A stretch of 64,000 nt of DNA from Verrucomicrobiota bacterium (GTDB lineage: Bacteria > Verrucomicrobiota > Verrucomicrobiia > Opitutales > Opitutaceae). Shown here piece after piece: positions 50,925 through 58,013 of the stretch; positions within the stretch are counted from its first letter, which is position 1, and every line of letters begins with the position of its first letter. The notes under the pieces were generated by a model that was not told where the DNA came from, searched no databases, and saw only the letters and a program-made list of their open reading frames with translations. The position numbers and the translations under genes are program-made. The stretch covers positions 1 through 64,000 of the forward strand of contig JACRKC010000056.1 in the NCBI GenBank assembly GCA_016235555.1. Reading direction: 5' to 3'.

Positions 50925-50934
50925 CGCGCGCGGA

Positions 50935-51052
50935 ACGCTCAACTTTTAACGTTTAACGCTGAACGCTCAATGAACCGGCCCAAGCCTGCGGAATCGAGAC
51001 GCCTGAACTTAAACGTTAAACGTTCAGCGTTAAACGTTGAGCGTTCCGCGAG
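50935..51052. repeat. Long inverted repeat of AACGTTTAACGCTGAACG words
   Basis: The left part (50935-50970) and the right part (about 51005-51052) are imperfect complements built from AACGTTTAACGCTGAACGCT-type words. The right part encodes 'NLNVKRSALNVERSAS' at the N-terminus of the PKD protein. It is related to 26681-26723. Confidence 0.75.
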
Positions 51053-52187
51053 TCGTGGCTTTTTCCGCTTCACGGCGCGCCTCGTGTTCGCCGCGCTCGC
51101 GGTTTCGTCGCTCCGCGCCCTCGATCGCCCCGAAGTCACGTTCAAGGTCTTCCAGTTTCCTCACGACAAGATCCCGCGCATCGACGGCGATCCGTCGGAC
51201 TGGGACCTCGTGCCCGCCAGTTACGCCATCGGCCTGGACCAATTCGTCGACGACGGGAAACCGAACCGCGCGCGCGATCCGCAGAACCTCGACGTGAAAC
51301 TCCGCGTCGGCTGGATCAAGAGCCTCAACCGCCTCTACGTCCTCTACGAAGCCTACGACAACTACTGGGACTTCGGCCGGCCCGACCTGCACAACGACAC
51401 CCTCGAAATCATGGTCGACGGCGACGCGTCCGGCGGCGCCTTCGTGCCCGGCTCGCGCGTCTGGACCGAGGAAAAAGTCGGCAAGCCCACCGCCGCGCCC
51501 GACTCGCGGATCAGCGCCGACGCCGCGCGGTGGGCGATCCACGGCGTGCACGCGCAGAACTACCACATCTTCACGCCCGCCGCGTCGAAGGACTGGTGCA
51601 TGGCATGGAACGCCGCCACGTGGACGAAAGAGTTTCCCCACGCCAACGCGAAATGCCGCTACGACTTCAAGCCCGGCCAGCCCGGCAAACTCACGCTCGA
51701 ATTCTGGATCACGCCCTACGACTACGCCGGCCCCGAGGGCCCCGCGCGCGCCGTCGAATCGGTGCTCCGCGAAAACAAAATCATCGGCCTCAGCTTCATC
51801 GTGATCGACTACGACGACGAAAAGAAGAACGCGAACAACGGCTTCTGGACCCTCTCCCGCGTGCGCACGTCGCACAGCCACGCGAGCGAACTCTGCGCCT
51901 TCAAACTCATGCCGCTCGAGCCGGCCCTGCTGCCCGCCCTCGAAGCGCGCTGGAGCTTCTCCGTCGTCGACCACGACCGCCGCGTCGTCGCGTTTACCGA
52001 TGAGACGATCGGAACCGCGAAACCCGCTGCATGGAAATGGGACTTCGGCGACGGCGAAACCTCCACCGAACAGCACCCGATCCACACGTTCAAGAAACCG
52101 GGCAACTACGTGACGATCCTCGACGTCACCGCCGCCGCCGGCACAACCTCCCGTCGCTCAAAAGTGTGGGACGTGCAGTTGCGGTGA
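50970..52187 (+). CDS. Exported CBM9-like and PKD-domain protein
   Basis: The 405-residue protein is predicted to be exported (hydrophobic segment 'FTARLVFAALAVSSLRALDR' at about residues 33-53). It has a CBM9/DOMON-like beta-sandwich ('PRIDGDPSDWDLVPASYAIG', 'YEAYDNYWDFGRPDLHNDT') and a C-terminal PKD domain with 'WKWDFGDGETSTEQHPIHTF'. It probably binds sugars and works with the two GH43 enzymes upstream. The first 30 residues are a translated dispersed repeat. A second copy of the last 25 codons is found at 53239-53317. Confidence 0.8.
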   Translation: MNRPKPAESRRLNLNVKRSALNVERSASRGFFRFTARLVFAALAVSSLRALDRPEVTFKVFQFPHDKIPRIDGDPSDWDLVPASYAIGLDQFVDDGKPNRARDPQNLDVKLRVGWIKSLNRLYVLYEAYDNYWDFGRPDLHNDTLEIMVDGDASGGAFVPGSRVWTEEKVGKPTAAPDSRISADAARWAIHGVHAQNYHIFTPAASKDWCMAWNAATWTKEFPHANAKCRYDFKPGQPGKLTLEFWITPYDYAGPEGPARAVESVLRENKIIGLSFIVIDYDDEKKNANNGFWTLSRVRTSHSHASELCAFKLMPLEPALLPALEARWSFSVVDHDRRVVAFTDETIGTAKPAAWKWDFGDGETSTEQHPIHTFKKPGNYVTILDVTAAAGTTSRRSKVWDVQLR

Positions 52188-52253
52188 ACGGCTCGTTGCG
52201 GTCTGCTCCACGCTTGCCTCGGCGGAGCGCCTGCGGCCTCGTTGGGCAAGCGC

Positions 52254-52811
52254 ATGGAAAAGGAGACGGTCATCAAAGCTCTCACGCTTCTCGGTCAGAA
52301 GGCCGCGGCCGCCGGCCTTGCTCCCGAAATCGCGATCTACGGCGGCACGGTGATGATGCTGGCTTACAACCAGCGTGAGGGCACGAAGGATGTGGATGCC
52401 ACCTTTCAACCGCGGGAAGCGTTGCAACCCCTGATCACCGAGGTCGCGGCAGAGCTGGCGCTCGCACCCGACAGGTTGAACGATCAAGTTGGCAAATTTG
52501 CACCGAATGCCGGTCCCACCGCGAATATGGCTTTCGACGAGCTGGCGGCGGTGCCGGGTATCCGATTCTCACGGCCGACCGCTCGCAAAATGCTCGCGAT
52601 GAAGGCGCGCGCCGCCCGCCTGCCTCGACCGGGGCATGGCGGGGACTTGCATGATCTCGCCTTTCTGATAACGCATACCGGCACAAAGTCCCTCGCGCAG
52701 ATCGACGAGACCTTTGAGCGATTCTACGGTGAACCGCTCGATGACCGACAACGTCTCGTCGCCGAGCGCGCGCTTGAAATCGCCAATGAACGCCGTCATC
52801 CGCCGCCCTGA
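52254..52811 (+). CDS. Nucleotidyltransferase-fold protein (DUF6036/AbiEii-like)
   Basis: The 185-residue protein has the minimal nucleotidyltransferase signature 'IAIYGGTVMMLAYNQREGTK' followed at once by 'DVDATF' (the two catalytic-type Asp residues), then a helical C-terminal part. This pattern occurs in type IV toxin AbiEii and DUF6036 proteins. ATG 52254 is preferred over TTG 52242. It overlaps the next gene by 26 nt and lies directly after the PKD gene in a patch of accessory genes. A toxin or defence role is inference. Confidence 0.75.
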   Translation: MEKETVIKALTLLGQKAAAAGLAPEIAIYGGTVMMLAYNQREGTKDVDATFQPREALQPLITEVAAELALAPDRLNDQVGKFAPNAGPTANMAFDELAAVPGIRFSRPTARKMLAMKARAARLPRPGHGGDLHDLAFLITHTGTKSLAQIDETFERFYGEPLDDRQRLVAERALEIANERRHPPP

Positions 52812-53196
52812 AAGCCTGCGCGAGGTCGCCGAGCGCGCGGATTCCATCGAAGCGTGGGGCTTGGCGCTGGGCGATTTCCTCGACGAGATTCGCTACCGCC
52901 GCCAGCACGACCTGCCGATCGCCGACTGCTGGCGGATCGCGCCGTCCCTGCTCCGCGAGAAGTTTCCGCAGGGAGACGTGGCCGACGCGTTTGCCGCGGC
53001 ACTGGCCGAGCGGCTCGCCGTGGAAAATTCGAATGATGCCCCTCCCGCTTGGACGCAGGCGCAGGACCGCTTCCTGACGACTCCGTGGTTTGCCGACGAC
53101 TCGCCCAAGGTGCGCGAGTATCTGCACAGCGCCACGCCGGGCGAATTTCGGAAGCACGGGGTCTTCATCGACACGATTTCGTTGAGTCGCGCCTGA
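52786..53196 (+). CDS. Hypothetical partner of the nucleotidyltransferase-like protein
   Basis: The 136-residue protein is mostly helical and charged ('RRPESLREVAERADSIEAWG', 'LGDFLDEIRYRRQHDLPIAD'). It has no recognisable domain. The start (ATG 52786, MNAVIRRPE) lies within the 3' end of the preceding gene, which suggests translational coupling and a shared function, perhaps as an antitoxin or regulatory partner. No membrane helix or signal peptide is seen. Confidence 0.65.
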   Translation: MNAVIRRPESLREVAERADSIEAWGLALGDFLDEIRYRRQHDLPIADCWRIAPSLLREKFPQGDVADAFAAALAERLAVENSNDAPPAWTQAQDRFLTTPWFADDSPKVREYLHSATPGEFRKHGVFIDTISLSRA

Positions 53197-53238
53197 AGAT
53201 TCCACGCTGCTGCACCCCTTCACGAATTCTGGCCTGGA

Positions 53239-53317
53239 CGTGACGATCCTCGACGTGACCGCCGTCGTCGGCGCGACCTCGGGCCGCTCGAAGGTGTGGG
53301 ACGTGCAGTTGCGGTGA
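53239..53317 (+). pseudogene. Fragment duplicating the 3' end of the PKD gene
   Basis: About 88 nt (53239-53326) align without gaps to 52109-52196, the last codons of the PKD gene and the nucleotides beyond its stop, with roughly a dozen differences. Both encode 'VWDVQLR' followed by TGA. The copy has no upstream coding sequence. The nucleotidyltransferase pair lies exactly between the two copies, so this is a remnant of a duplication or of the insertion that brought the pair in. Confidence 0.8.
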
Positions 53318-53401
53318 ACGGCTTGAATCTGCGCCGTTGGAAGAACTACGAAACCCCCAGCGCGGCATCGCCGCAAGCAATGCGCGGACCAAGGCATTTT
53401 T

Positions 53402-53624
53402 GACCACGGATGACGCAGATTTCGCAGATAAAGGCAGGAAGGCCCCGGACCATCCGCGCGATCTGCGTGATCCGCGGTGAGTTGATTGGAAAAGATCGTC
53501 GCGGGAGGCGTGCAAGTTGAGGGATAGTGAACGAAGGACACGAAACCGAACCCAGCTTTAACCGCTGATCTTCGCTTATCGTCGCTGATTTCGGATTAGC
53601 GAAAATCAGCGTGGATCAGCGGTT
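53402..53624. repeat. Two long hairpins: ACCACGGATGACGCAGAT and AACCGCTGATC families
   Basis: At 53402-53479 arms ACCACGGATGACGCAGATTT and ATCTGCGTGATCCGCGGT are complementary. At 53561-53624 arms AACCGCTGATCTTCGCT and a complementary TCAGCGTGGATCAGCGGTT form another. Similar natural hairpins are common in environmental bacterial genomes. The second one overlaps the stop of the DUF2779 gene. No gene lies in 53318-53615. Confidence 0.8.
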
Positions 53625-55157
53625 CCTCGGTGTTGCGTTCCTTGCCCGCTCACCTTCCGGGGCCGGTTCGTGCCGCCTATTGAAAAACTGCCAGAGCCGG
53701 ACGAGGGCAAACGTATCAAGCCGGCAATAGGCAAGGAGCTGGCGCTCGATCTCGCTTTTGCGCTCTTCGGCGGTGCCTGGTTGAATCGCTTCACAAAAGG
53801 CGGCCATGGCTGCTTCCCCGTCCTTCACGCCGGCGAGCACGTCATAGGTCAATTCCGGGACTGCCGCGGGCAGCACGGCCTTGATGCTCCAGCTTCCCCT
53901 TTGGATCGGGTGATAGTAGCGGCGGCGGACGATGGGAAGGAGATCGACCACCCTCGCATTGAGGGCCAACAGCGGCCGGGCCAAATCGGGGTAGCGGTTG
54001 GCCAGCTCGTCAATCCGGGCGGTCTCAAACCCCGCATTGTAGACGAAGATCGGCCCGCTCACACCGCAGGCAGCGATCAATGTCCTGGCAAGAGATTCGG
54101 ACGGGTCATGGCCCGAGAGATCGAGGAAGGCGCTTTCCGACAGTTGGCCGGACTTCGAGAGTGCATGCAGGCTGAACTGGAAAGGAATCTGCTGGTAAGG
54201 GCGCGTTCCTTTCCAGATGGGCACGGCAAACTGGATCGTCTCGAAGTCGAGGAAATAGGCCGGGAAATCATGCACCACGAGATCGGCGGCTGCGCCGGCA
54301 GCGTCAAAAAACACGGTTTTGTTGAGTGTGTGTTTTTTGACCAGGCGTTGCTTGCCGTTGAGCAGCTCATCCGGCACCGCGCGCAGGTCATTGACGCCCA
54401 ATTCGGCCAGCCGCCGGCGTTGCGTAGTAGACAAGTGCGGCAGCCAGTCGATCGGGTGCTCCGTCGGTGGCGTGGCCCGGTTGCAGTGAACGCAGAACCC
54501 ACAATCAAACGGGATGTGGCAGTGAGGACCGACGCCGATTGCGGGCTCGGTGGGCTGGCTCACGACATTCTGCGCCCCGGCCATCCAGTCTTTGACTTCA
54601 TCGTTTCGAGCGAAGGTCTCCTCCGAGAGTTCGGTTTCCTTCAGCAGGCCCCGGTAGTCTTCTCCTCCCGGATAAACCCAGGAACTGTCGATGCACGCCA
54701 CAGCCACGGATTTCAATTTGACTCCCGCCGCCCGGGCGATGAACGCCTGCACCGCCACGTCATCTCGATGATAGTCCTTCACGCTGGTCGACGACTTCAC
54801 CTCCACCATCCGCCACGCCCGCCCGCCAGCATCGTCCTCGGGCAGCATCACATCGGCAAAGGCCAGTCCGCCCGCGGCCCGGAATCCGGCCTCAAAAATC
54901 GGCTGCCGCGAATGGGCCAGCAACTTCTCGGTGCGGGCGATGGCTCCGTCATAGCCTTCCGCCTTCACATCGATGACGGTTCCCTTTCCCTTCGGATCGT
55001 AGATGCGCCGGGCGATGTCGCCGACTTGGTGGCCGACGTGGAAGCTGGCCAGCGTGGCGATCGAGTCTTCGCGCAAATCGGGACGATGGACCTCCAGCCA
55101 CAGGCGCTTCGGACACTGGCGAAAGGCAATGAGTCTCGATTTGGAAAGGAGGCGCAT
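53616..55157 (-). CDS. DUF2779 protein: PD-(D/E)XK nuclease plus exonuclease-like domain
   Basis: The 513-residue protein has an N-terminal Cas4/RecB-like part with 'FRQCPKRLWLEVHRPDL', a PD-(D/E)XK-type 'WRMVEVKSSTSVKDYHRDD' and a Cys cluster 'CHIPFDCGFCVHC' that could hold a 4Fe-4S centre. A C-terminal DnaQ-like part follows with 'AYFLDFETIQFAVP' (exonuclease I motif), 'FVYNAGFETARIDELA' and 'LLAYCRLDTFALVRLW'. DUF2779 proteins are of unknown function but look like dual nucleases. ATG 55157 was chosen (MRLLSKSRLIAFRQCP). It follows another nuclease-fold gene by 63 nt on the same strand. Confidence 0.85.
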   Translation of the reverse strand: MRLLSKSRLIAFRQCPKRLWLEVHRPDLREDSIATLASFHVGHQVGDIARRIYDPKGKGTVIDVKAEGYDGAIARTEKLLAHSRQPIFEAGFRAAGGLAFADVMLPEDDAGGRAWRMVEVKSSTSVKDYHRDDVAVQAFIARAAGVKLKSVAVACIDSSWVYPGGEDYRGLLKETELSEETFARNDEVKDWMAGAQNVVSQPTEPAIGVGPHCHIPFDCGFCVHCNRATPPTEHPIDWLPHLSTTQRRRLAELGVNDLRAVPDELLNGKQRLVKKHTLNKTVFFDAAGAAADLVVHDFPAYFLDFETIQFAVPIWKGTRPYQQIPFQFSLHALSKSGQLSESAFLDLSGHDPSESLARTLIAACGVSGPIFVYNAGFETARIDELANRYPDLARPLLALNARVVDLLPIVRRRYYHPIQRGSWSIKAVLPAAVPELTYDVLAGVKDGEAAMAAFCEAIQPGTAEERKSEIERQLLAYCRLDTFALVRLWQFFNRRHEPAPEGERARNATPRNR

Positions 55158-55220
55158 GGAGATGGACGGGTATTCGGTGAGAAAACTCTGCCTCAACCTC
55201 GAGTCCCAGTATCGGACGAC

Positions 55221-56312
55221 TCACGGGCCATCCGAAGGCGCGGTGGGTTCGGGACGCGGTCTTAACAAAGCGGCAACGCTCGCCAGTTGTTTTAGGCGCT
55301 CAATAATTCCTCTCACGACCGCGTCTTTCTCCTCGCCGACTTTGAGGTCCAGCGCCACGGCGATGTCGGCGCCTTTGTCCATCGCGATGGCAACGCGAGT
55401 CTTGGCTGCCCAAGGTTCGAGTAGCGGACGCATCTCACTCGACCGCCCAAATTCGGACGGAAATACCACCCAGAGCGGGGTGCCGCCGTGGCTTTTCCAC
55501 AATGCAAAGTGAATCCCGACCCACACACCTACTTGTCGCTCCTGTCCAAAGTAAGCGTAGCGGCCCATCCGGCTGAAGTCCGCTTGTGGATTCAGCCGCT
55601 TGATATCGAGGATCCCACCTTTGACTGCCAACGCCACGACCTCTTGCACCAGTGAAGTGAGCTGGAGAACAAACGCCGGACTGCGCTGGTCGGAAACCTG
55701 TTCTGCGGAGAACGGTGCGAACGCCTCGTCGTCGACGGCGTCACAGAGCGCGCGCAACTGTTGCAGGTCGTTTCTCGCCGTCGGGTCGTCAGCCAGTTCC
55801 AGTTCAAGGAACGAGAACAGTTTCTCCCACGAGGTTAATGCCAGACTCGGTCGAATGCTCGTAGTGAACGAGCAAACCAGCCCCGCCGGCGCCGCCTGCT
55901 CGGTCGCAACAATCCCGGCTTCGCCCAGTTTTCGTTCGAGCTCCCGCGCCAGAGTTTGCATCCGAGCTTTGGGTGCGATCACCAAGAGGATGGTGGGGTG
56001 GTCCTGTTTCTCGAGAATTCGGAGATAGGAGGCCGGCTGATTTTCCGTGAGGCCCGCCCAAAATTTGTTTTCGACGAAGACGTGAGGCCGGCTCGCTTCA
56101 TCGCGATCCCACATGTCGGGACGGTTATTATCTTCGCTGTCTTGGGTGCTGAACCACAGATTGGGCAATTGCGGGACGATACCGCGGAGCAATTTCATCA
56201 TGCCTTTCCGGGTGGCCTCGCGAGAAAGCAGGAATGCGAGTGCCTCGGTTGCGACGTTTTCGCCTTCGTGGGAAAGCCGCTTTTGCACGATGTGGCTGAA
56301 GACGGTTTGCAT
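55221..56312 (-). CDS. PD-(D/E)XK nuclease-fold protein
   Basis: The 363-residue protein starts with a helical segment (FSHIVQKRLSHEGENVATEA) and contains the PD-(D/E)XK pattern: Asp in 'NRPDMWDRDE', Glu and Lys in 'VFVENKFWAGLTENQPASYL', with the downstream Gln-x2-Ser-Tyr helix seen in restriction-type nucleases. The C-terminal half (about 200-340) holds 'RYAYFGQERQVGVWVGIHFA', a separate beta-rich domain of unknown role. The gene is the first of a two-gene minus-strand unit with the DUF2779 gene. DNA defence or repair is a reasonable guess. Confidence 0.75.
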   Translation of the reverse strand: MQTVFSHIVQKRLSHEGENVATEALAFLLSREATRKGMMKLLRGIVPQLPNLWFSTQDSEDNNRPDMWDRDEASRPHVFVENKFWAGLTENQPASYLRILEKQDHPTILLVIAPKARMQTLARELERKLGEAGIVATEQAAPAGLVCSFTTSIRPSLALTSWEKLFSFLELELADDPTARNDLQQLRALCDAVDDEAFAPFSAEQVSDQRSPAFVLQLTSLVQEVVALAVKGGILDIKRLNPQADFSRMGRYAYFGQERQVGVWVGIHFALWKSHGGTPLWVVFPSEFGRSSEMRPLLEPWAAKTRVAIAMDKGADIAVALDLKVGEEKDAVVRGIIERLKQLASVAALLRPRPEPTAPSDGP

Positions 56313-56534: not shown

Positions 56535-58013
56535 TCAAGCCGGCGGGTTCAGAAACGCGTGCAACTCCGCCGCCATTTTGCCGCCGAAGCCTGCGACGGC
56601 GCTGATCTCGGTGGCGCTCGCCGCGCGGAGTTTTTCGATGCTGCCGAAATGCTCGAGCAGAGCGGCGCGGCGCACCGGGCCGAGGCCGGGGAAATCGTCG
56701 AGCACGCTCTCGCGGATTTTTTTCGAGCGCAGGTCGGCGTTGTAGGTGTTGGCGAAGCGATGGGCCTCGTCGCGCAGGCGCTGGAGCAGTTGCAGGCCGG
56801 GGTGGGTGAGCGGAAGTTTCAGCGGCGCGCGCTCGTCGGGGAAGATGATCGTCTCGTGCTCCTTCGCGAGTCCGATCATCGCGGGCGGCATGGCGTCGAG
56901 GCCGACGAAGGCCTTCAGCGCCGCGCCGATCTGGCCGCGGCCGCCGTCGATCACGACGAGGTCGGGAAACGGTTTCTGCTCTTCGGTGAGCCGGCGGTAG
57001 CGGCGGCCGACAACTTCCTCCATCGCACGGAAATCGTCGTTGCCGATGAAGCTTTTGATCTGGAAGCGGCGGTAATTGTCCTTGTCGGGCCGGCCGTCGG
57101 CGAAGCGCACCATCGAGGCGACGACGAACGTCCCTGAGATGTGCGAGATGTCGAAGCACTCCATCGTGCGCGGCGGGTGGGCGAGGTGCAGCGCTTCCTG
57201 GAGCTGGCGCAACGCCTCCTCGTCGCCGGCGGGACGCGTGGGGTCGAGTCGCTCGAAGCGGCGCGTCTTGCGTAGCGTCTCCTCCAGCGCGAAGACCACG
57301 TCGCGCAGTTCGGCGGCCTTCTCGAATTCCTGCTTCTGTGCGGCGGCGAGCATCTCGGCGCGGAGGGTTTCGAGCCACTCGCGCGATTTGCCCTCGAGGA
57401 ATTCGCACGCGGCGTCGACGCGCGCGCGGTAGGCTTCGGCGGTGACGATGTTCTCCTGCGCGTAGAGTTCCTCGCGCACGTCGTCATAGAGCTGCCAGCG
57501 GCCGTCGGGGAGTTGTTTCGGCAGCGTGTCGCCGAGCAGAATGCCGAATTGCCGGCGCATCTGCGCGAGCGTGCGGCGGAGCAGCCCGCTGTGCGCGAAC
57601 GGCCCGAAGTAGCGCGAGCGGTCGTCCTTCTTGAGGCGCGTGAGGCGGAAGCGTGGCATCGCTTCGCCGTGATCAAGGCGCACGAGCAGGAAGCGTTTGT
57701 CGTCGGTGAAGTCGGTGTTGTAGCGCGGGCGCCACTGCTTGATGAGTTTGCCTTCGAGCAGCAGCGCCTCGGGCTCGGACTTGACCTCGATCGTATCGAA
57801 GTCGGCGATCATTTCGATAAGCGCGCGGATCTTCGGCTGCGAGATGGTGCGGGCGCGGCCGCGTTGGAAATACGACGAGACGCGTTTCTTCAAGCTCTTG
57901 GCTTTACCGACGTAAATGATGCGCCCGAGCCGGTCTTTCATGAGGTAAACCCCCGGCCGGTCGGGCAGGTGCCGCACCTTCTCCTTGAGATTAACCGGTT
58001 CCGTCGCTGGCAT
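56535..58013 (-). CDS. uvrC: Excinuclease subunit UvrC lacking the cysteine cluster
   Basis: The 492-residue protein has the GIY-YIG nuclease domain ('PGVYLMKDRLGRIIYVGKAK'), a UVR motif ('FEKAAELRDVVFALEETL'), the RNase H-like 5' incision domain ('MECFDISHISGTFVVASMV', 'LVVIDGGRGQIGAA') and C-terminal helix-hairpin-helix motifs ('FPGLGPVRRAALLEHFGSI'). It makes both incisions in nucleotide excision repair. It is about 100 residues shorter than typical UvrC. The segment after 'YFGPFAHSGLLRRTLAQM', which normally carries conserved cysteines (CxxY...RCxxPC type), has none. Confidence 0.93.
   Translation of the reverse strand: MPATEPVNLKEKVRHLPDRPGVYLMKDRLGRIIYVGKAKSLKKRVSSYFQRGRARTISQPKIRALIEMIADFDTIEVKSEPEALLLEGKLIKQWRPRYNTDFTDDKRFLLVRLDHGEAMPRFRLTRLKKDDRSRYFGPFAHSGLLRRTLAQMRRQFGILLGDTLPKQLPDGRWQLYDDVREELYAQENIVTAEAYRARVDAACEFLEGKSREWLETLRAEMLAAAQKQEFEKAAELRDVVFALEETLRKTRRFERLDPTRPAGDEEALRQLQEALHLAHPPRTMECFDISHISGTFVVASMVRFADGRPDKDNYRRFQIKSFIGNDDFRAMEEVVGRRYRRLTEEQKPFPDLVVIDGGRGQIGAALKAFVGLDAMPPAMIGLAKEHETIIFPDERAPLKLPLTHPGLQLLQRLRDEAHRFANTYNADLRSKKIRESVLDDFPGLGPVRRAALLEHFGSIEKLRAASATEISAVAGFGGKMAAELHAFLNPPA

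Follow-up and report, generated by a model that had tools for sequence, protein, structure and literature searches.

What are two small overlapping genes doing between two copies of the end of a third gene? We met this arrangement in a Verrucomicrobiota bacterium (Opitutaceae), in the first 64,000 nt of contig JACRKC010000056.1 (assembly GCA_016235555.1, in 140 contigs), a stretch that we call the window. There, a nucleotidyltransferase (NTase) gene and a partner gene lie between direct copies of the 3' end of a PKD-domain gene. The original prediction, made from the DNA letters of the window, had seen in the pair a candidate toxin-antitoxin or defence cassette with an undescribed second component, left either by insertion at a gene end or by the collapse of a tandem gene pair. 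We now consider it rather probable that the module is a MenT/AbiEii-type chromosomal toxin-antitoxin cassette with an unmatched antitoxin family, inserted at the PKD gene's 3' end. Sequence comparison speaks for the toxin-antitoxin reading, and from such comparison the conserved pairing, the active site, the asymmetric loss of the two genes, and the flanking duplication with its recurrence at other modules were all obtained.

The conserved gene pair

The first gene of the pair, on the forward strand, runs from an ATG at 52254 to a stop codon ending at 52811 and encodes an AbiEii/MenT-like NTase of 185 aa, the proposed toxin. The protein matched Pfam PF08843 (AbiEii) with 31.1 bits against a cut-off of 22.5, and stayed under the cut-off of DUF6036 (PF19502; 12.3 vs 23.6 bits). 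Among eight NTase relatives, at E up to 0.1, two matched PF08843 and four matched PF19502 (best 9.5e-5). Residues G31, T44, K117, D131 and D134 were invariant in 45 of 45 aligned NTases, and D46, D48 and R41 were found in 44, 43 and 42 of them, respectively; in the phylum sample described below, the partnered NTase of genome G251 has a Ser at T44. The active-site set of GG, R, T/S, DxD, K and D is present and was matched by motif, not by superposition, to that of MenT1, for which two papers give R37, T39 (phosphorylated), D41, D43, K137 and D152 (PMC11375011, PMC10435456). The arginine of the window NTase lies one residue further from the Thr than in MenT1. When the AlphaFold2 model of the NTase (predicted local distance difference test, pLDDT, 89.6) was submitted to a VIA search, the first rows were MenT1 8an5 (Z 8.6 over 164 residues, 4.4 Å), 8an4 (8.4), the aminoglycoside nucleotidyltransferase ANT(2'') (8.3) and MenT4 (7.8). 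Searches of the PDB by sequence returned weak rows only.

The partner gene begins within the NTase frame, with which it overlaps by 26 nt, and extends from an ATG at 52786 to a stop codon ending at 53196 on the same strand. The original prediction hung on this second frame being conserved, and the frame is indeed conserved, with 48 homologues. Across these and the window protein (49 partners), 11 residues are invariant, namely P53, D67, A68, A71, A72, A74, P87, W89, R95, P118 and F121. Compared with the nearest module elsewhere, at locus L064, both frames are under purifying selection, with ratios of nonsynonymous to synonymous substitution (dN/dS) of ~0.09 for the NTase and ~0.24 for the partner. 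For the second component, which had been suggested to be undescribed, the Pfam sequence profiles gave no supported match to any known family in 12 members, including none to AbiEi and none to HEPN, and the window partner had no match in PADLOC or PHROGs. The literature searched, which listed work on MenT, AbiE, HEPN/MNT and restriction-modification systems, yielded no description of the family, and the word DUF6036 occurs in none of the papers searched. The 136-aa product, the proposed antitoxin, was modeled as an all-helical protein of eight helices (pLDDT 90.7, predicted TM-score 0.85). With this model, Foldseek gave nothing below E 8.4 and the VIA search, over 27 chains only, gave a best Z of 3.2 on 82 residues; the lack of a clear PDB match for a predicted model does not establish a new fold. 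Many partner relatives end in a basic C-terminal tail that contains a GRP motif and seems, by eye, to recall AT-hooks; the subtype of the window has no such tail.

We counted by hand how often the two genes adjoin in 387 genomes of the phylum, taking as strong NTase places those with E ≤1.3e-29 (38 places) and accepting a partner match within ~150 nt. Eleven weaker NTase rows were left out, including remnants, second pieces and a partial match in G358 (5.6e-19, no partner). The partner adjoins 36 of the 38 places, 32 of which were confirmed by reading the loci, and the two NTases without it belong to G034:C7 and G270. When GTDB genomes were scanned with the partner alignment, at least 56 partner loci were found, and the record titles of those listed are mostly from Verrucomicrobiota, with some from Acidobacteria, Proteobacteria and Actinobacteria (Solirubrobacteraceae). 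Among the matches listed, an NTase adjoins 51 of 56 partner loci and is broken in two of the 51 (L062 and L111). The order in these listed pairs is NTase-partner in 47 and partner-NTase in four, and the frames overlap in 47 of the 51, by 4 nt in 30, given start codons chosen by a script. As judged from these comparisons, the NTase and the partner are a conserved module of small genes kept together across phyla.

The pair is also found on plasmids. In Mycobacterium intracellulare and Curtobacterium, a plasmid carries a partner match directly upstream of an annotated DUF6036 nucleotidyltransferase gene, and on the M. intracellulare plasmid (L203, 1-2941) a RES/Xre pair and a PIN-domain gene precede this pair closely. 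A single annotated coding sequence of 358 aa on a Mycolicibacterium plasmid (L205, 2105-3181) holds both the partner domain and the NTase; its N-terminal stretch, before the partner domain, looked helix-turn-helix-like by eye and had no Pfam match. An Azospirillum plasmid has a partner without a full NTase. Among viral contigs, the partner matched in one of 85 candidates (L201, with no NTase match in the locus), while the NTase was found in none of 10 viral-contig candidates and in no phages, and PHROGs gave no match. A long open reading frame (ORF) on contig C89 of the window's own genome was at first taken for a fusion of the two genes; this was rejected, as it is an NTase in which a frameshift makes the reading run on into the partner frame.

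Asymmetric loss of the two genes

The two genes are not lost equally. In the phylum sample, the partner was detected at 33 places with E ~1e-18 or better, leaving out a partner fragment in G074 as a 34th, and an intact NTase is missing at seven of them. No NTase was seen in G004, G378 and G262, remnants were present in G216, G092 and G075, and the seventh is the frameshifted copy in the window's genome. The NTase of G375, first flagged with two stops, showed no break over the NTase model and was placed among the intact ones. Partnerless NTases were fewer, two of 38 vs seven of 33 partners without an intact NTase (p 0.048), or one of 37 when an NTase lacking the motif was set aside (p 0.018). 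Nine conserved sites were read in 34 distinct NTases, leaving aside the three partnered places G330, G296 and G380:C311 and the frameshifted copy. The 32 partnered NTases retain the whole set, except for one G-to-D in the G30-equivalent region and one T-to-S. Both partnerless NTases are altered, that of G034:C7 at five of the nine sites, including T44, D46 and D48, and that of G270 at D134. The same direction is seen in close relatives of the window module, where about 12 NTase codons are left at L061 and the NTase of L062 has an internal deletion and a frameshift, with the partner frame intact in both. Because NTases are lost while partners persist, and partnerless NTases are altered, the role of toxin probably falls to the NTase and that of antitoxin to the partner. 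The numbers are small, and as a pattern the losses would correspond to an antitoxin that is tolerated alone and a toxin that is not.

We noted at L191 (1237-1809) a solitary NTase relative that lacks T44, D46 and D48; its genome also carries an intact pair at a different place.

For the action of the cassette, we infer toxicity, a tRNA target and neutralisation by the partner. The NTase would add nucleotides to RNA, most likely to the 3' acceptor end of tRNA as MenT toxins do, and translation would stop. The partner, translated from the overlapping frame, would bind the NTase and hold it inactive, perhaps by inducing auto-phosphorylation of T44, as in the case of MenA1 acting on T39 of MenT1.

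The duplicated PKD gene end around the cassette

The PKD-domain gene (50970-52187, forward strand, 405 aa) is intact and its 3' end is duplicated around the gene pair. BLASTN of the flanks aligned 52108-52193 with 53238-53323 over 86 nt at 88.4% identity (E 1.9e-27), and a repeat search extended the direct repeat to 111 nt at 82% identity (52083-52193 vs 53213-53323). Both methods thus bear out the earlier description of two copies of about 88 nt and 87% identity. The left copy contains the last PKD codons and 6 nt beyond the gene, which it completes. The right copy, on the same strand, is a 3' fragment, as had been proposed: its protein similarity to the PKD gene starts only at codon 363 of 405, at 65%, with weaker similarity reaching back to ~53195-53213. 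Since the two copies mismatch at 10 of 86 positions, they are not one sequence assembled twice. Between them, the outer limits of the cassette are 52194 and 53237, enclosing about 1 kb with two genes and no recombinase. DNA similarity to the L064 module (72%) spans 52207-53197, beginning 13 nt past the left repeat and stopping 40 nt short of the right one. By this comparison, the limits of the cassette are fairly sharp.

The PKD gene occurs independently of the module, as far as the related genomes tell. Full-length PKD matches (E <1e-90) were present in 21 of 115 genomes, NTase matches in 17 and partner matches in 22, the window's genome being counted in each. Conserved synteny of these parts, which would have counted against the original prediction, was not seen: in 19 PKD loci of relatives (L004-L022, flanks ≤1.5 kb), neither the NTase nor the partner was present, and relatives of six neighbour genes of the window were also absent from these loci.

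Parallels to the window were found at other modules. Of 85 distinct modules, 74 were testable with at least 400 nt on each side, and 143 gene-sized spans from the same loci served as controls. Same-strand repeats within 300 nt on both sides occurred at 12 of 74 modules, the window included, and at one of 143 control spans (p 1.2e-5). When the window was excluded, L070/L071 and L073/L077 were merged, and the dispersed repeats at L093 and L130 were dropped, the counts were 7/71 and 1/143 (p 0.002). Several of these repeats are gene ends: the uvrA 3' end at L068 (Pfam UvrA domains), the end of a mannosidase-like gene (mannosidase Ig domain) that runs off the stretch examined at L145, the end of a short ORF that L073 shares with L077, and, at L063/L064, an ORF of 115-120 aa. 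The L070 repeat meets the end of an ORF of 62 aa whose reality is uncertain, and no gene was recognised in the repeats of L066 and L085. At L068, L073, L077 and L145, a longer gene stands on one side and a 3' piece on the other, like in the window, so the uvrA and mannosidase-like gene ends give the original idea of insertion at a gene end its parallels. At L069, a tRNA 3' end suspected by eye as the repeat was rejected, as ARAGORN detected no tRNA and Rfam no tRNA match.

In L066 (7354-8939), two repeats of 420-440 nt with 92% identity enclose a partner that has only a remnant of the NTase, and the right repeat begins at the partner stop codon. Dispersed repeats with many copies on both strands of the same genome occur in the window at 50929-51050 and 53356-53533, flanking the PKD gene and module on both sides.

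As for the wider neighbourhood, we dropped ORFs of more than 700 aa from both sets and compared 123 of 138 ORFs within 1.5 kb of modules with 123 drawn from 161 distant ORFs (174 before this cut). Neither set had a toxin-antitoxin family among its 25 commonest families (of 154 near and 133 distant). A general setting in toxin-antitoxin or defence islands was therefore rejected, as none was enriched among the 25 commonest neighbour families. On the suggestion that the pair be sought elsewhere next to defence genes, the neighbour scan gave no general link with defence. Single loci did have such neighbours, with DUF433 and DUF5615 at L024, DUF5615 at L040, Unstab_antitox at L042 and Zeta_toxin at L068, whereas two toxins called by eye, of PIN type at L024 and RelE-like at L042, had no Pfam match and were discarded. 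Downstream of the module in L068 (8904-12204), the Zeta-toxin-like gene (Pfam) is followed by ORFs that resemble TOPRIM and AAA defence proteins by eye. In the window, two minus-strand genes at 53616-56312 encode a DUF2779 protein with a weak Cas4 match in PADLOC and a protein whose PDDEXK_4 match falls short of the cut-off; they are possibly a nuclease pair. A uvrC-like ORF, so named by eye, adjoins them at 56535-58013.

Competing readings and related systems

Several observations weigh against our preferred reading. A VIA Z near 8 can reflect a common arrangement, yet the first 24 rows were all NTases or AbiE-type proteins; with Foldseek, the NTase model gave no row at E ≤0.001, the first rows being MenT3 with a best E of 0.013. 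At position 74, the window NTase carries an Arg (R74) in place of the Trp that is present in the remaining 44 of the 45 aligned sequences, so this copy may be weakened. The lack of toxin-antitoxin families among the common neighbours counts here as well. The limit of 300 nt for the flanking repeats was chosen after a first list had been seen (in which repeats flanked 12 of 54 modules, as against 23 of 342 random spans), and with a looser limit of 1.5 kb the contrast was 14/74 modules vs 7/143 controls (p 0.0014). No close repeat was present at 62 of 74 modules, and thus most insertions are old or other routes exist; the second module copy in the window's genome has no flanking repeat within 0.9-1.5 kb either. 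At L068, the uvrA fragment matches the host uvrA at 73 of 95 positions and the uvrA of another species at 76 of 95. Being no nearer to the host gene, it is not a recent copy of it. An empty site for L068 was not found among the uvrA ends of eight genus genomes, all eight of which had the end, one being the L068 place itself; past uvrA in the other seven Pelagicoccus-like genomes, no gene in common was seen, and short low-complexity pieces occurred in one.

The origin of the duplicated end might also be sought in a tandem pair of PKD genes that collapsed, the fragment being the relic of a second paralogue mostly lost or replaced by the module. A relative does have tandem PKD genes, with ~70 nt between the matches (L199, G017:C1:29419-31669), which keeps this model alive for the window, and the identity of the window copies falls upstream of the 86-nt core (to 82% over 111 nt). 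Collapse nevertheless leaves unexplained the fragments of unrelated genes beside related modules (uvrA at L068, and those at L145, L073/L077 and L063), and the limits of the cassette agree with those of the L064 similarity to within ~13 nt at the left end and 40 nt at the right; we regard collapse as doubtful. According to our preferred reading, the cassette would have entered beside the PKD 3' end, and since a second copy of that end came to lie on its far side, the PKD gene remained intact. How this happened we likewise infer from the flanks, whose pattern fits insertion with a long target duplication, by analogy with the restriction-modification genes discussed below, and also fits a recombination that brought the gene end of a donor along, as the uvrA fragment of L068 might suggest. 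We only tentatively go further and propose a minimal mobile element, in which a recombinase-free cassette of 1.0-1.2 kb with a MenT-like NTase and an undescribed antitoxin family would repeatedly enter gene 3' ends, leaving the gene whole on one side and an end copy of 50-400 nt on the other.

The roles of the two proteins could be otherwise assigned. In HEPN/MNT (type VII) systems, the NTase is the antitoxin, and here too a small helical protein is paired with an NTase, so the NTase might modify a toxic 136-aa partner. This seems quite improbable considering the excess of partners without an intact NTase (7/33) over partnerless NTases (1/37 or 2/38) and the lack of a Pfam HEPN match among 12 partners. 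A two-subunit nucleotidyltransferase for housekeeping or resistance, with the partner as its substrate-binding subunit, would suit the closeness of ANT(2'') to MenT1 in VIA score (Z 8.3 vs 8.6) and the lack of a general defence neighbourhood around the modules. The patchy presence of the NTase among the 115 genomes, the lack of conserved neighbours, the retention of partners without an NTase, and the position of the M. intracellulare plasmid pair behind RES/Xre and PIN genes all argue against such a function, which we hold to be unlikely.

One close counterpart among the systems already described is the MenAT1 pair of Mycobacterium tuberculosis (its toxin MenT1 is Rv0078A, PDB 8AN4/8AN5). Both have a small single-domain NTase (185 aa here, 194-196 in the MenT1 chain) whose R, T, DxD, K and D residues are comparable, and in both a small partner gene adjoins it. 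They differ in that the NTases share 18% identity in the alignment, the NTase is usually the first gene here, and its activity is putative; the eight-helix partner model of 136 aa also contrasts with MenA1, which has 68 aa. With the type IV system AbiE (AbiEi/AbiEii), the module shares the PF08843 match of its NTase, whereas the partner had no AbiEi match in Pfam (12 members) or PADLOC (window). The DUF6036 family is related through four of the eight NTase relatives and through the plasmid relatives, which are named DUF6036 family nucleotidyltransferases, the window protein itself falling below the cut-off. To the MenT/AbiEii toxins (DUF1814), which are known with diverse antitoxins, the module adds a partner family that is widespread yet has no name in Pfam. 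It can thus be used to ask whether unrelated antitoxins rely on one mechanism, the auto-phosphorylation of the active-site Thr that the antitoxin induces. The flanks of the cassette resemble those of restriction-modification genes in Helicobacter pylori, for which Nobusato et al. 2000, as cited in PMC1643837, are reported to describe insertion with long target duplication from two strains compared. In both cases, inserted genes lie between long direct copies of target DNA, read there from a comparison of strains and here from the flanks, no empty site having been seen among genomes that include no second one of the window's genus. The likeness suggests that toxin-antitoxin pairs may bear the mark reported for restriction-modification genes, duplicated target DNA, here at gene ends, and with this mark the movement of recombinase-free selfish gene pairs becomes testable by strain comparison.

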